From NCBI RefSeq assembly GCF_016863295.1, contig NZ_BOOP01000007.1:62001-126000 (forward strand): a stretch of DNA of 64,000 nucleotides. Direction: 5' to 3'. The notes beneath the pieces were generated by a model. That model had not been told where the DNA came from. It saw only the letters and a list, made by a program, of their open reading frames with translations, and did not search any database. The translations under genes and the position numbers were made by a program. Positions 33,437-39,524 of the stretch are shown here, piece by piece; positions within the stretch are counted from its first letter, which is position 1; every line of letters begins with the position of its first letter. This stretch comes from Planotetraspora phitsanulokensis. GTDB taxonomy: Bacteria; Actinomycetota; Actinomycetes; Streptosporangiales; Streptosporangiaceae.

Positions 33437-34372
33437 TTAATTTTTACCCAGGCCGCCCACCTGCGGAGACGTCTGGCGATGGCGGTGACGGGTGTCCTCG
33501 AGGAACCGATCCAGCGCTCCCTTGGTGGCTTTCAGAGCTCCTTCGGACGCCTCGAAGGTCCGGTGCGCGACGCCGACGAAGACGCAGTCGACGATGAGCA
33601 ACTGGCTGATGCGGCTGGCGAGCGCGCCCGGCCGGAACTCCGTCTCGCGACCGGCCGACACGAGCACGTGTTCGGCCGTCTCCGCGAGCGACGACCGGGG
33701 GTTGTTGGTGATCGCGACCGTCGCCGCTCCCGCCCGCCGGGCCGTCCGCATCGGCTCGAGCACGTCGGGCGTCTCCCCGGTGCAGCTCACGCCGATCGAG
33801 ACGTCCGAGGGCCCGGCCACGGCCGCCGCCGTGAGAGCGAGGTGGACGTCGGTGAAGGCATGGGCGGAGACGCCGATCCGCAGCAGCTTCTGCGCCATGT
33901 CGGCGGCGACCAGGCCCGACGCCCCCACGCCGTAGACGCTCACCCGCCGGGCGTCCGCCACGGCCTTGACGACCGGGCCGAGCAGTTCCGGGCTGAGCTG
34001 CGCCGCGGTGTCCGCCAGCGCTTCCGACTCCGCCCTGGCGACCTTGGCGATGACGTCGGCGAGCGGGTCGCCTGGAGCGAGGTCTCCCGGCACCAGCCGG
34101 TCCGGCCGTTCGCGCGCCGACGCCGCGGCCAGGGCCAGGCGCAGCTGGGAGTATCCCGTGAATCCGAGGGCGCGGGCGGTCCGCACGATCGTCGCCTGGC
34201 TGGTGCCCGAGGCCTCGCTCAGCTCGGTGATCGTGCTCCTCGCGACCGTGGCCGGGTCGTCCAGGATCAGCCTGGCGATCGAGCGCCCGGCGGGGGTGAG
34301 CGAGGGCAGCACCGCGCGCACCGTGGCGACGAGGTTCGCGGACGCGGGTCCGCCTGCTGAGGGCTCCTTCAT
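33437..34372 (-). CDS. RpiR/MurR-family transcriptional regulator
   Basis: A 311-residue regulator: an N-terminal RpiR helix-turn-helix (about 20-90: TITELSEASGTSQATIVRTARALGFTGYSQLRLALA) and a C-terminal SIS sugar-phosphate-binding domain (about 125-290, VYGVGASGLVAADMAQKL and GVSCTGETPDVLEPM). SIS-domain regulators of this family, such as MurR, sense phosphorylated sugars; MurNAc-6-phosphate is the natural candidate here. It sits between nagZ and the importer genes on the same strand. Start supported by AGAAGGAG. Probably represses the cluster until MurNAc-6-phosphate builds up (inference). Confidence 0.92.
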   Translation of the reverse strand: MKEPSAGGPASANLVATVRAVLPSLTPAGRSIARLILDDPATVARSTITELSEASGTSQATIVRTARALGFTGYSQLRLALAAASARERPDRLVPGDLAPGDPLADVIAKVARAESEALADTAAQLSPELLGPVVKAVADARRVSVYGVGASGLVAADMAQKLLRIGVSAHAFTDVHLALTAAAVAGPSDVSIGVSCTGETPDVLEPMRTARRAGAATVAITNNPRSSLAETAEHVLVSAGRETEFRPGALASRISQLLIVDCVFVGVAHRTFEASEGALKATKGALDRFLEDTRHRHRQTSPQVGGLGKN

Positions 34373-35977: not shown

Positions 35978-36996
35978 CGTCCCTCCGGAACCGGAACGCG
36001 CTCGATCAGCCGCACGTGCGCCTCGTGCGCCCGGTCGGCCGGCAGAGCCGCCCTGAGCGCCAGCGCCGCAGCGCCGACGGCCCCGTCGCGTGCGGGCGTC
36101 CACGGAGCCCGCTCCCCCAGCGCGGCCCGCACCCTGCGCGCCAGCTCCGTCGGCTCGGTCAGCAGCGAGCCCGCCAGCACCAGCGGGCCGCCGAAGTCAT
36201 CTCCGTCGTCCTCGTCCCGCTCGGGGTCGCGGCCGGCGACCTTCGCCGTACGGCTCAGCCGGTGCGCGGCCTCGTCGAGGATGTCGCCGGCGACCGGGTC
36301 GCCCTTCCTGGCGGCGTCGTCGACCACGGGAGACAGGGTGCCCAGCCAGGCCGCGCCCTTCGACGCCACCCGTTCGTAGACGACGTCGATGAGCCGCGCG
36401 GTGAGCTCCCGCGACCATTCCGGGGTGGGCTCGTGGGCCGGGGCCGCGCGGCCGAGGACGGCCGCCGCGACCAGGTCGACCAGCAGGGTCGGCGGGGTCC
36501 TGCCGTCGAGGGCCGTGAGCGCGCGGGTGAGGGCGTGTCGCCCGATCCACACTCCGGAGCCCTCATCGCCCAGCAGCCACCCCAGGCCGTCGGCGCGCCG
36601 GACGACGGCGCGGTCCCGGATCCTGGCCGCCATCGCGCCGGTCCCCGAGACCAGCACGGTGCCGTCGGGCTCGGGGGTGGCGCCGCAGAAGGCGACGAGC
36701 ACGTCCGGCACCACCACCGGGAGGCCGGGCAGCCCGGCGGCCCGCCACGCCTGGACGGCCGGCGCCTCGCCCCGGGCGACTCCCGCGAGGCCGAACACGC
36801 CTCCGGCCACCCGTGACCGGTTGAGGCCCTCCAGCGCGGCGGTCAGCGCCGCCAGCAGGCTGGCGGCCGGGTCGGGAGCGGACAGCACGTTGGCACCGCC
36901 CGAACGCCCGCGCCCGGCGACCTCTCCGGTCTCCCCGGCGACGACGCAGCGAGTGCTCGTACCACCGCCGTCCACACCGACGAACAGAGCCGTCAC
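35974..36996 (-). CDS. BadF/BadG-type amino-sugar kinase (MurNAc/GlcNAc kinase candidate)
   Basis: A 340-residue kinase of the BadF/BadG/BcrA/BcrD ATPase family, which includes eukaryotic N-acetylglucosamine kinase and the Clostridium MurK that phosphorylates both GlcNAc and MurNAc at O6. Phosphate-1 motif LFVGVDGGGTSTRCVVA (about 4-20), phosphate-2 motif VLVSGTGAMAARI (about 115) and GDEGSGVWIG (about 143) are visible. It contains an acidic insertion (ERDEDDGDDF) near residue 270. As the cluster has MurQ but no PTS enzyme, this kinase is the obvious source of MurNAc-6-phosphate. First gene of the nagZ operon; GTG start. Confidence 0.9.
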   Translation of the reverse strand: MTALFVGVDGGGTSTRCVVAGETGEVAGRGRSGGANVLSAPDPAASLLAALTAALEGLNRSRVAGGVFGLAGVARGEAPAVQAWRAAGLPGLPVVVPDVLVAFCGATPEPDGTVLVSGTGAMAARIRDRAVVRRADGLGWLLGDEGSGVWIGRHALTRALTALDGRTPPTLLVDLVAAAVLGRAAPAHEPTPEWSRELTARLIDVVYERVASKGAAWLGTLSPVVDDAARKGDPVAGDILDEAAHRLSRTAKVAGRDPERDEDDGDDFGGPLVLAGSLLTEPTELARRVRAALGERAPWTPARDGAVGAAALALRAALPADRAHEAHVRLIERVPVPEGR

Positions 36997-37122
36997 GACC
37001 GCCCCTTGCGTAGATACCTTCCGACAAGTTACAAGAGAGCGAAGATTTTCTACAACGAGTGCTGTGACGGAGAAGACCCGTCCCGCGGACCCGATGCGGG
37101 CCCGCGGGCTTCGAGTGCAGGG
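36997..37122 (-). promoter_or_regulatory. Upstream region of the kinase-nagZ operon
   Basis: No gene in these 126 bases. On the minus strand a TTGTAGAAAATCTTC element at about 37055-37041 stands out against the GC-rich background and resembles the TTGTAGTAAAATTACAA type of site used by some RpiR-family regulators. A clear -35/-10 pair could not be fixed. Confidence 0.4.
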
Positions 37123-37347
37123 TTACCTGGTGTTGTCGGCCAGGTCTGCCAGGTCCGCCGCCATCCGGAAGAGCCTGTTGCGGCCCAGGTCGCCGATCGT
37201 CTTGATGTTGAAGGCCTGCTTGAGGAGCTCGCCGTCCTTCTCGCTGATGCCCGACATCGCGTGAACCGGGGCCTTGAGCAGGTCCGACAGGCTCATGTTC
37301 TCGTAGTCCCGATCGAGCAGCTTCGCCAGATCCGCTGTCACCGTCAT
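37123..37347 (-). CDS. Small helix-hairpin-helix-like conserved protein
   Basis: A 74-residue soluble protein. The segment SGISEKDGELLKQAFNIKTIGDLG (about residues 32-55) has the spacing of a helix-hairpin-helix or SAM-like element, followed by NRLFRMAADLADLAD. Similar small proteins are common in actinobacteria; function unknown. The ATG has a very G-rich ribosome site, GAGGGGGGG, which is part of a strong stem-loop, so translation may be controlled by RNA structure. It lies 77 bases downstream of the molybdenum oxidoreductase operon on the same strand. Confidence 0.75.
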   Translation of the reverse strand: MTVTADLAKLLDRDYENMSLSDLLKAPVHAMSGISEKDGELLKQAFNIKTIGDLGRNRLFRMAADLADLADNTR

Positions 37348-37351
37348 GGGT

Positions 37352-37391
37352 CCCCCCCTCGACTCGGGCCAGAGGCCCGTACTTCGGGGGG
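37352..37391 (-). promoter_or_regulatory. Two-part hairpin covering the ribosome-binding site of the small HhH-like gene
   Basis: On the minus strand, CCCCCC (37391-37386) can pair with the GGGGGG that forms the ribosome-binding site, and inside it CGGGCC and GGCCCG pair around a 3-base loop, with a small internal loop between. It could block initiation or, alternatively, terminate transcription from the upstream oxidoreductase operon. Confidence 0.5.
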
Positions 37392-37424
37392 TGCCCAAAC
37401 CGGTTGTTTTCTATGCGAGTTTGC

Positions 37425-39524
37425 TCACACGGCCCCGCCGATCAGGCGGTCCAGGCGGATCGGCAGGTCGCGGACCCGCAGGCCGGTGGCGTGGTACACC
37501 GCGTTAGCGACGGCGGCGGCCGTGCCCACGATGCCGATCTCGCCGATGCCCTTCGACCCCATCGGGTTCAGCTCGGGATCCTCCTCCTCGATCCAGAACG
37601 CGTCGACGTCGCGGACGTCCGCGCAGGCGGCGAAGTGGTACTGCGCCAGGTCGCGGTTGAGGTAGTCGCCGAACTCGACGTCCATGACGCTCTCCTCGAA
37701 CAGCGCCATCGACAGGCCCATGGTCATGCCTCCGATGAACTGCGACCGCGCGGTCTTGGGGTTGATGATCCGGCCGGCCGCGAACGCCCCCAGCAGGCGC
37801 AGCACCCGCACCTCCCCCGTGTCGAGGTCGACGCCGACCTCGGCGAACTGGGCGCCGTACGCGTGCCTGGAGAACGGCCGCTGCGACCGCAACTCCTCGG
37901 CCGTGTCCACGCTCGCCTCGAGGCCGCCCGGCGGCACGTCGCCCGCGCGGCGGTGGAGGACGTCCGTCAGCGCCTCGCAGGCCCGCACGACGGCGGTGCC
38001 CCACGAGGCCGTCCCCGACGACCCTCCGGCGACCGAGGCCCGGGGCAGCGCGCTGTCCCCGACCTCCATCCGCACCTGGGCCGGCGCGACGCCCAGCGCG
38101 TCGGCGGCGATCTGCGTGAGGACGGTCCTCGCCCCGGTCCCGATGTCGGCGGCGGCGATCTTGACCGTGAAGCCGCCGCCGGGCTCGGCCCGGGCGGTGG
38201 CCTGGGAGGGCAACCGGTAGACCGGGTAGGTCGACGACGCCACCCCCGTGCCGATCAGCTGCCGGCCCCTGCGGCGGACGCCCGGCTCGGGGTCGCGCCC
38301 CGCCCACCCGAACCGGGCGGCGCCCTCGCGCAGGCAGGCGACGAGGTTGCGGGAGCTGAACGGCAGTCCGCGCTCCGGATCGACGGTGGGCTCGTTTCGG
38401 ACGCGCAGCTCGACGGGGTCGATCCCGCAGGCGACGGCCAACTCGTCCATGGCCGACTCCAGCGCGAACATCCCGGGCGTCTCCCCGGGCGCGCGCATCC
38501 ACGTGGGGACCGGCACGTCGAGCCGGACCAGGCGGTGCGAGGTCCGGCGATGCGGAGCCGCGTACATCATCCGCGTGACGACGGTCGTCTGCTCGGCGAA
38601 CTCCTTGACCGTGGCGGTCTGCTCGAACGCCTCGTGCACGACCGCGCTCAGCCTCCCCTCCTCGTCCGCGCCGAGCCGTACGCGCTGGACGGTGGGGGTC
38701 CGGTAGCCGGTCACGGCGAACATCTGCCGCCGGGTGGCGGCCAGCTTCACCGGGCGGCCCACCTGCTTGGCCGCCAGCGCCGCGAGCACCACCTGGGCGT
38801 GTGGGGCGCCCTTGGACCCGAATCCGCCGCCCACGTACGGCGACACCACCCGAACGCTCTCCGGCGGCAGGCCGAACAGTGGGGCGATCGTGGCGCGCAC
38901 CGCCGAGGCGCTCTGGGTGGAGTCGTACAGCGTGAGCCCGTCCGCGTCCCAGACGGCGACGGTGGCGTGCGGCTCGATCGGGTTGTGGTGCTGCGCCGGC
39001 GTGGTGTACGTCGCGTCCACGACGACGGGCGCGAAGCCGAGGGCGGCCTCGGGATCGCCGAGTTCGCTGTCCGTGGCGTAGTCGGGGTTGACGTGGTCGG
39101 GCCGGTACATCCCCGGATGATCGGCGCGCAGTTCGACGTCGTGCGGTTCAACCTGGTAGTCCACCCGCAGGAGCCGGGCCGCCTCGGTGGCGCTCTCGAT
39201 GGTCTCCGCCACCACGACCGCCACCACCTGACCGCGGTACGCCACCCGCGGCGACTGAAGGACGGTGAGCTCCGCGTCTTCGATCGGGGCCACCCGGGGC
39301 GCGTTCTCGTGCCAGATCGCGGCGATGATCCCGGGAAGCTGGAGCACCGAGTCGGCGTCGACCACGCGGACCGCTCCCCTGGCGATCGTGGACTGGACGA
39401 CCACGGCGTAGGCCAGGTCGTCTGGGGCGTGCTCGTAGGCGTACCTCGCCCGGCCCGTCACCTTCTCCGGGCCGTCGACCCGGTCCAGGGCCGTCCCGGA
39501 GTACGGCGCGGCGACGGTGGTCAT
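37425..39524 (-). CDS. Molybdenum-cofactor subunit of xanthine/aldehyde oxidoreductase (YagR/PaoC-like)
   Basis: A 699-residue large subunit of the xanthine oxidase family that binds molybdopterin and carries out hydroxylation of an aldehyde or heterocycle. Motifs: GTALDRVDGPEKVTGRARY at the start, YVGGGFGSKG (about 243), the MRAPGETPG loop (about 340), and GSKGIGEIG near the end with the catalytic Glu (about 658). Size and operon order (FeS, FAD, Mo) match the YagTSR/PaoABC aldehyde oxidase rather than the larger XdhB. Its ATG overlaps the FAD-subunit stop. No XdhC/PaoD-type cofactor-insertion chaperone is visible in the window. Confidence 0.93.
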   Translation of the reverse strand: MTTVAAPYSGTALDRVDGPEKVTGRARYAYEHAPDDLAYAVVVQSTIARGAVRVVDADSVLQLPGIIAAIWHENAPRVAPIEDAELTVLQSPRVAYRGQVVAVVVAETIESATEAARLLRVDYQVEPHDVELRADHPGMYRPDHVNPDYATDSELGDPEAALGFAPVVVDATYTTPAQHHNPIEPHATVAVWDADGLTLYDSTQSASAVRATIAPLFGLPPESVRVVSPYVGGGFGSKGAPHAQVVLAALAAKQVGRPVKLAATRRQMFAVTGYRTPTVQRVRLGADEEGRLSAVVHEAFEQTATVKEFAEQTTVVTRMMYAAPHRRTSHRLVRLDVPVPTWMRAPGETPGMFALESAMDELAVACGIDPVELRVRNEPTVDPERGLPFSSRNLVACLREGAARFGWAGRDPEPGVRRRGRQLIGTGVASSTYPVYRLPSQATARAEPGGGFTVKIAAADIGTGARTVLTQIAADALGVAPAQVRMEVGDSALPRASVAGGSSGTASWGTAVVRACEALTDVLHRRAGDVPPGGLEASVDTAEELRSQRPFSRHAYGAQFAEVGVDLDTGEVRVLRLLGAFAAGRIINPKTARSQFIGGMTMGLSMALFEESVMDVEFGDYLNRDLAQYHFAACADVRDVDAFWIEEEDPELNPMGSKGIGEIGIVGTAAAVANAVYHATGLRVRDLPIRLDRLIGGAV

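Follow-up and report, generated by a model that had tools for sequence, protein, structure and literature searches.

Static hairpins in 5′ leaders that sequester the Shine-Dalgarno sequence (SD) set low translation. The leader described here resembles them in that a stable local hairpin engages both the SD and the start region, and differs in that this hairpin occurs in only four species of one genus and is known as a predicted fold. ROSE and fourU elements, which are RNA thermometers, likewise hold the SD in a hairpin, whereas the GC arms of the present one are predicted to remain unmelted up to 80 °C. With translational riboswitches the leader shares a conserved sequence upstream of the SD; unlike them, it has no Rfam match and a weak common structure across genera. 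Intrinsic terminators, which in actinomycetes may lack a U-tract, are also GC-rich hairpins behind operons; this hairpin, however, besides having no U-tract, extends over the next gene's SD and start codon. Among the papers listed by literature searches none dealt with this small-gene leader, and plasmid records held nothing resembling 37300..37430.

Closure of the ribosome-binding site

The leader lies in a 64-kb window (the whole stretch of DNA that was analysed) with a GC content of 71%. The initial annotation had proposed that a seven-G ribosome-binding site can pair with a six-C run around an inner 6-bp stem. Our analysis confirmed both the coordinates and the pairing, on the minus strand, where the leader preceding the small-gene ATG reads GGTTTGGGCACCCCCCGAAGTACGGGCCTCTGGCCCGAGTCGAGGGGGGGACCCATG and contains the following features.

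37391..37416, minus strand: conserved block GCATAGAAAA-N6-GTTTGGGCAC, a putative promoter or 5′ leader
37397..37394, minus strand: UGGG, partner in the fold of CCCA (37350..37347), whose last base is the A of the ATG
37391..37386, minus strand: six-C run, pairing partner of the G run in the fold
37380..37381, minus strand: TA (of GTACGGG), invariant in 21/21 aligned leaders
37379..37374, minus strand: CGGGCC, 5′ arm of the inner stem
37373..37371, minus strand: TCT, loop of the inner stem
37370..37365, minus strand: GGCCCG, 3′ arm of the inner stem
37358..37352, minus strand: GGGGGGG, the ribosome-binding site (GAGGGGGGG from 37360)
37347..37345, minus strand: ATG start codon of the small gene
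37123..37347, minus strand: small gene of 74 aa, HhH-like, belonging to a conserved family (open reading frame and homologs)

The inner stem is enclosed by the pairing of the C run with the G run, and UGGG/CCCA adds four pairs that extend the hairpin to the A of the ATG. The 81-nt leader has a predicted folding energy of -42 kcal/mol, compared with -30.6 ± 3.4 kcal/mol for 200 dinucleotide shuffles, none of which was equally stable (z -3.34). This is above chance for a window of such GC content, and lies at roughly the 1% level among genes.

The ribosome-binding site itself had been described as locked, and in the predicted RNA it is. Opening the site costs 18.9 kcal/mol in the window species, and equal closure was found in 2 of 308 control genes (median 7.5, 95% point 14.0 kcal/mol), which came from 400 kb of contig C4 plus the window and were called by a simple ORF and SD script with heuristic start choices (309 called). 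The start region was equally stable in 9/308 controls. When only the part upstream of the site was shuffled, none of 200 sequences reached the observed closure. The SD is thus paired in the predicted fold beyond the genome background.

Temperature has little predicted effect on this closure, with the mean unpaired probability of the site rising from 0.14 at 20 °C to 0.15 at 42 °C and 0.24 at 80 °C. An RNA thermometer, which had been raised initially and for which the position of the SD within a hairpin would speak, is scarcely credible for a site predicted to be paired up to 80 °C.

The position at which the RNA begins does matter. The site is still closed in read-through transcripts begun as far up as 37560 (17.8 kcal/mol), and closure is weaker with a start at 37394 or 37391 (13.8 and 13.4 kcal/mol, respectively). 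With a start at 37388 or below, the opening energy drops from 19.5 to 8.7-11.8 kcal/mol, which is in the ordinary range. Because an RNA beginning at or below about 37388 would be without the lock, the transcription start decides the lock question. A promoter scan of 36400..38200 found none, in DNA so GC-rich that almost nothing would be expected.

Distribution of the lock among relatives

We folded 32 leaders, taken from the less distant homologs. Planotetraspora comprises five species according to PMC11431748, and the lock is present in four of them, with opening energies of 18.9 kcal/mol in the window species, 19.8 in P. kaengkrachanensis (leader L002), 17.5 in P. silvatica (L003) and 16.7 in P. 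mira (L004). The exception is P. thailandica (L005), at 9.4 kcal/mol, with 93/308 control genes as closed. The single leader of g94, another genus, gave 5.6 kcal/mol, and 15 leaders of Microbispora (g95; L066 and L064 are identical to those of the named L029 and L030) gave 5.0-11.0 kcal/mol.

Upstream shuffling, applied to 31 of the 32 leaders (L081 left out), gave a similar division. The observed closure was reached by 0, 0, 3 and 3 of 200 shuffles in the four locked species, by 124/200 in P. thailandica and by 122/200 in g94; closure was also beyond most shuffles in L064 (22/200), L066 (14/200), L068 (7/200) and L007 (14/200). The pair probability of the C tract with the site is 0.8-1.0 in the locked species, at most 0.01 in P. 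thailandica and at most 0.15 in g94, and such pairing is substantial in 3 of 15 Microbispora leaders (L060, L061 and L076). Overall, tract-site pairing is possible in nearly all of 21 aligned leaders and predicted to be substantial in only seven.

Among the four locked species the C run, the G run and the inner arms carry no substitution and differ only by one-base length changes; the C run has five C in three other species. The 25-nt block beside the stem shows 0 or 1 change among the same species. In the small gene, 2 of 33 four-fold sites differ between the window species and two of the locked species; in xdhL (the upstream gene) and the kinase gene downstream, comparison of the window species with the other three in turn gives four-fold differences of 0.16-0.24. 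Since the neighbouring block hardly changes and the small gene differs at so few four-fold sites from two of the species, the unchanged arms are no proof of constraint on the stem.

To ask whether the lock is ancient, we aligned 21 leaders, leaving out 11 that could not be aligned by eye (L006, L058, L074, L057, L059, L063, L077, L078, L080, L081 and L007). Their consensus structure is weak (-2.9 kcal/mol), with six pairs that can form in 20 or 21 of the 21 leaders and of which none has a two-sided change. Projecting the lock onto the alignment, 76.4% of cells pair, compared with 74.1 ± 1.2% in shuffles, a level matched by 19/500 shuffles, and 32-63% pair when the lock is slid. Five projected pairs have two-sided changes; 125/500 shuffles do as well, and 95/500 reach the covariation score.

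These data bear on another initial proposal, that of an RNA switch, which we considered in the form of a translational switch that a ligand, a protein or a small RNA would open. The closure is very strong and rare, and a conserved block adjoins it. Two pairings of the 21-leader consensus can also form almost throughout, with C-U changes preserving them: GG with CC/CU in 21/21 leaders, and CYYC with GGGG in 20 or 21. However, a pyrimidine tract is able to pair with any G run, and the covariation is matched by shuffles as given above. Within the five Planotetraspora no pair shows a two-sided change, P. thailandica has no lock, and no clear alternative fold that would free the site was seen by eye in the window species. 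Rfam gave no match in the 64-kb window, nor in 37200..37500 at E up to 5, in a search that is blind to any undescribed RNA family. Taken together, we regard a switch as unlikely, and nothing suggests that the hairpin opens in response to a signal. There is a still slighter chance that the block common to Planotetraspora, g94 and Microbispora represents a cis-acting RNA of an undescribed type. Its GG..CYYC would then alternate between two states, one masking the G-rich ribosome site together with the start codon and the other paired elsewhere, and the four-species lock would be the extreme form of this RNA.

The conserved block and the nature of the lock

Between genera, the conserved feature is a sequence block, made up of GCATAGRWAW, GTTTGGGCAC and the downstream TA. 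GCATAGRWAW-N6-GTTTGGGCAC has one exact match per genome in 5/5 Planotetraspora; the block is also recognisable in g94 and in most Microbispora leaders, with one base fewer between its halves. It would be a promoter or leader of the small gene, and it is a more lasting feature in front of this gene than the lock and a better target for further study. In the L068 leader the element GGCGCTCGCATAGGAA is duplicated in tandem. A regulon reading was rejected: allowing up to three mismatches added one site (in G004), and a reversed control gave one each in G004 and G002.

In a rival reading, which we consider doubtful, transcription would begin within the C run or below it and the lock would never form; the hairpin would then be a side effect of a conserved DNA element, either a promoter or an operator, in a GC-rich leader. 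Consistent with this, what is shared is sequence, with GTTTGGGCAC and the TA (in a codon-like GTA or ATA) kept while the spacing from TA to ATG varies between 28 and 36 nt in the 14 leaders measured; L006 has a similar block at a greater distance from the ATG, as judged by eye; and a start at 37388 or below would bring the opening energy into the ordinary range. Yet a pure DNA element leaves unexplained why closure in four species goes beyond upstream shuffles of the same bases. Also, the hexamers and spacing of the block match no promoter class when compared by eye with consensus sequences, the sigma-70, SigB-like GTTT..GGGTAY and ECF-like GGAA.. candidates all misfitting in one or the other, and we claim no promoter class for it.

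In g94, as in the four locked species, the gene immediately upstream is xdhL, which encodes a molybdopterin-binding oxidoreductase subunit (Pfam MoCoBD). The hairpin had initially been offered, alternatively, as the terminator of this oxidoreductase operon, and a terminator or insulator would fit its place after xdhL in all four locked species, with 34 nt from the stop codon to the C run. Against this, g94 has xdhL directly upstream yet no lock, the hairpin takes in both the SD of the following gene and the A of its ATG, and 36400..38200 contains no terminator-like site on either strand (0.3 expected in shuffles). Moreover, the leader block accompanies the small gene even where its upstream neighbour is not xdhL: in P. 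thailandica the FAD-binding subunit gene xdhM lies directly upstream, and no xdh subunit was found in the two long Microbispora loci. A terminator or insulator is thus very improbable. In the 19-kb P. thailandica locus (L123), xdhM and xdhS are present and xdhL is absent.

We lean towards a lineage-specific static hairpin that damps translation and sits on a promoter or leader block of greater age, an explanation we hold to be somewhat probable. Because the lock is restricted to four closely related species, it resembles a fixed brake of recent date more than a switch, a thermometer or a terminator. We prefer such a brake to a switch, and likewise a nearly neutral outcome of GC-rich drift. Transcription would begin upstream of the C run, placing the hairpin within the 5′ leader of the small gene; as the conserved block reaches the C run, a start just below the GCATAG element would include it. 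According to the predictions, the C run, the G run and the GC inner stem keep the ribosome site closed at every growth temperature, so that the G-rich site and the A of the ATG would be paired most of the time and initiation would be rare. A ribosome terminating on xdhL at 37425 would halt some 20-28 nt short of the hairpin and should not open it. The hairpin may have arisen or strengthened in the ancestor of the four Planotetraspora, atop the older block. We infer all three elements of this model, namely the RNA start upstream of the C run, formation of the fold in the cell and lowered translation. Against a brake, G runs readily find pairing partners when a leader is rich in GC. A working lock would be a translation brake of recent origin inside one genus, with a close unlocked relative alongside, and its effect would be directly testable with the natural leaders.

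The small gene and its neighbourhood

Homologs of the small protein occur in 56 of the 341 genomes of the family; others come from further actinomycetes and from a single Chloroflexota MAG. The label HhH-like, given initially, is compatible with, though not proved by, a weak resemblance of the protein to Y-family DNA polymerases in their HhH region. The protein reached no Pfam or NCBIfam cut-off (top NCBIfam match DNA polymerase IV, E 0.0039). A structure model (mean pLDDT 82) had no Foldseek match at E ≤ 0.001, the best being Y-family DNA polymerases (E 0.26), to which it bears a weak partial likeness (Z at most 4.3). A profile search of solved sequences gave weak matches, the best at E 0.039 (ribosomal L7/L12).

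In the window, a TTG-started extension through the hairpin is an open frame. GGGCA and the ATG lie 49, 49, 48, 47 and 49 nt apart in the five Planotetraspora, and because these indels shift the frame of the extension, so that the extended readings differ, the ATG at 37347 is likely to be the start.

Downstream, the order small gene, BadF/BadG-type ATPase, glycosyl hydrolase family 3, RpiR-type regulator and solute-binding protein (Pfam) is kept in 7/7 long relative loci; in the shorter loci the kinase gene follows the small gene in 14 of 19. The BadF/BadG-type ATPase is probably a sugar kinase. Between the small gene and the kinase gene, 37010..37055 (minus strand) reads TTGTAGAAAATCTTC...GGAAGGTATCTAC and is kept in Planotetraspora, g94 and two Microbispora loci; it looks like a sugar-gene promoter-operator, perhaps for the RpiR-type regulator at 33437..34372. 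A GC-rich dyad at 37082..37108, after the small-gene stop, is matched by a comparable one at the corresponding position in the other three locked Planotetraspora, and could be the end of the small-gene transcript.

Additionally, each of the five Planotetraspora genomes carries a second copy of the small gene, about 50% identical to the first. In the genome of the window this copy lies at G000:C4:279486-279701 (L021), and its leader contains the inverted repeat GGAATC-TGCAAA-GATTCC.
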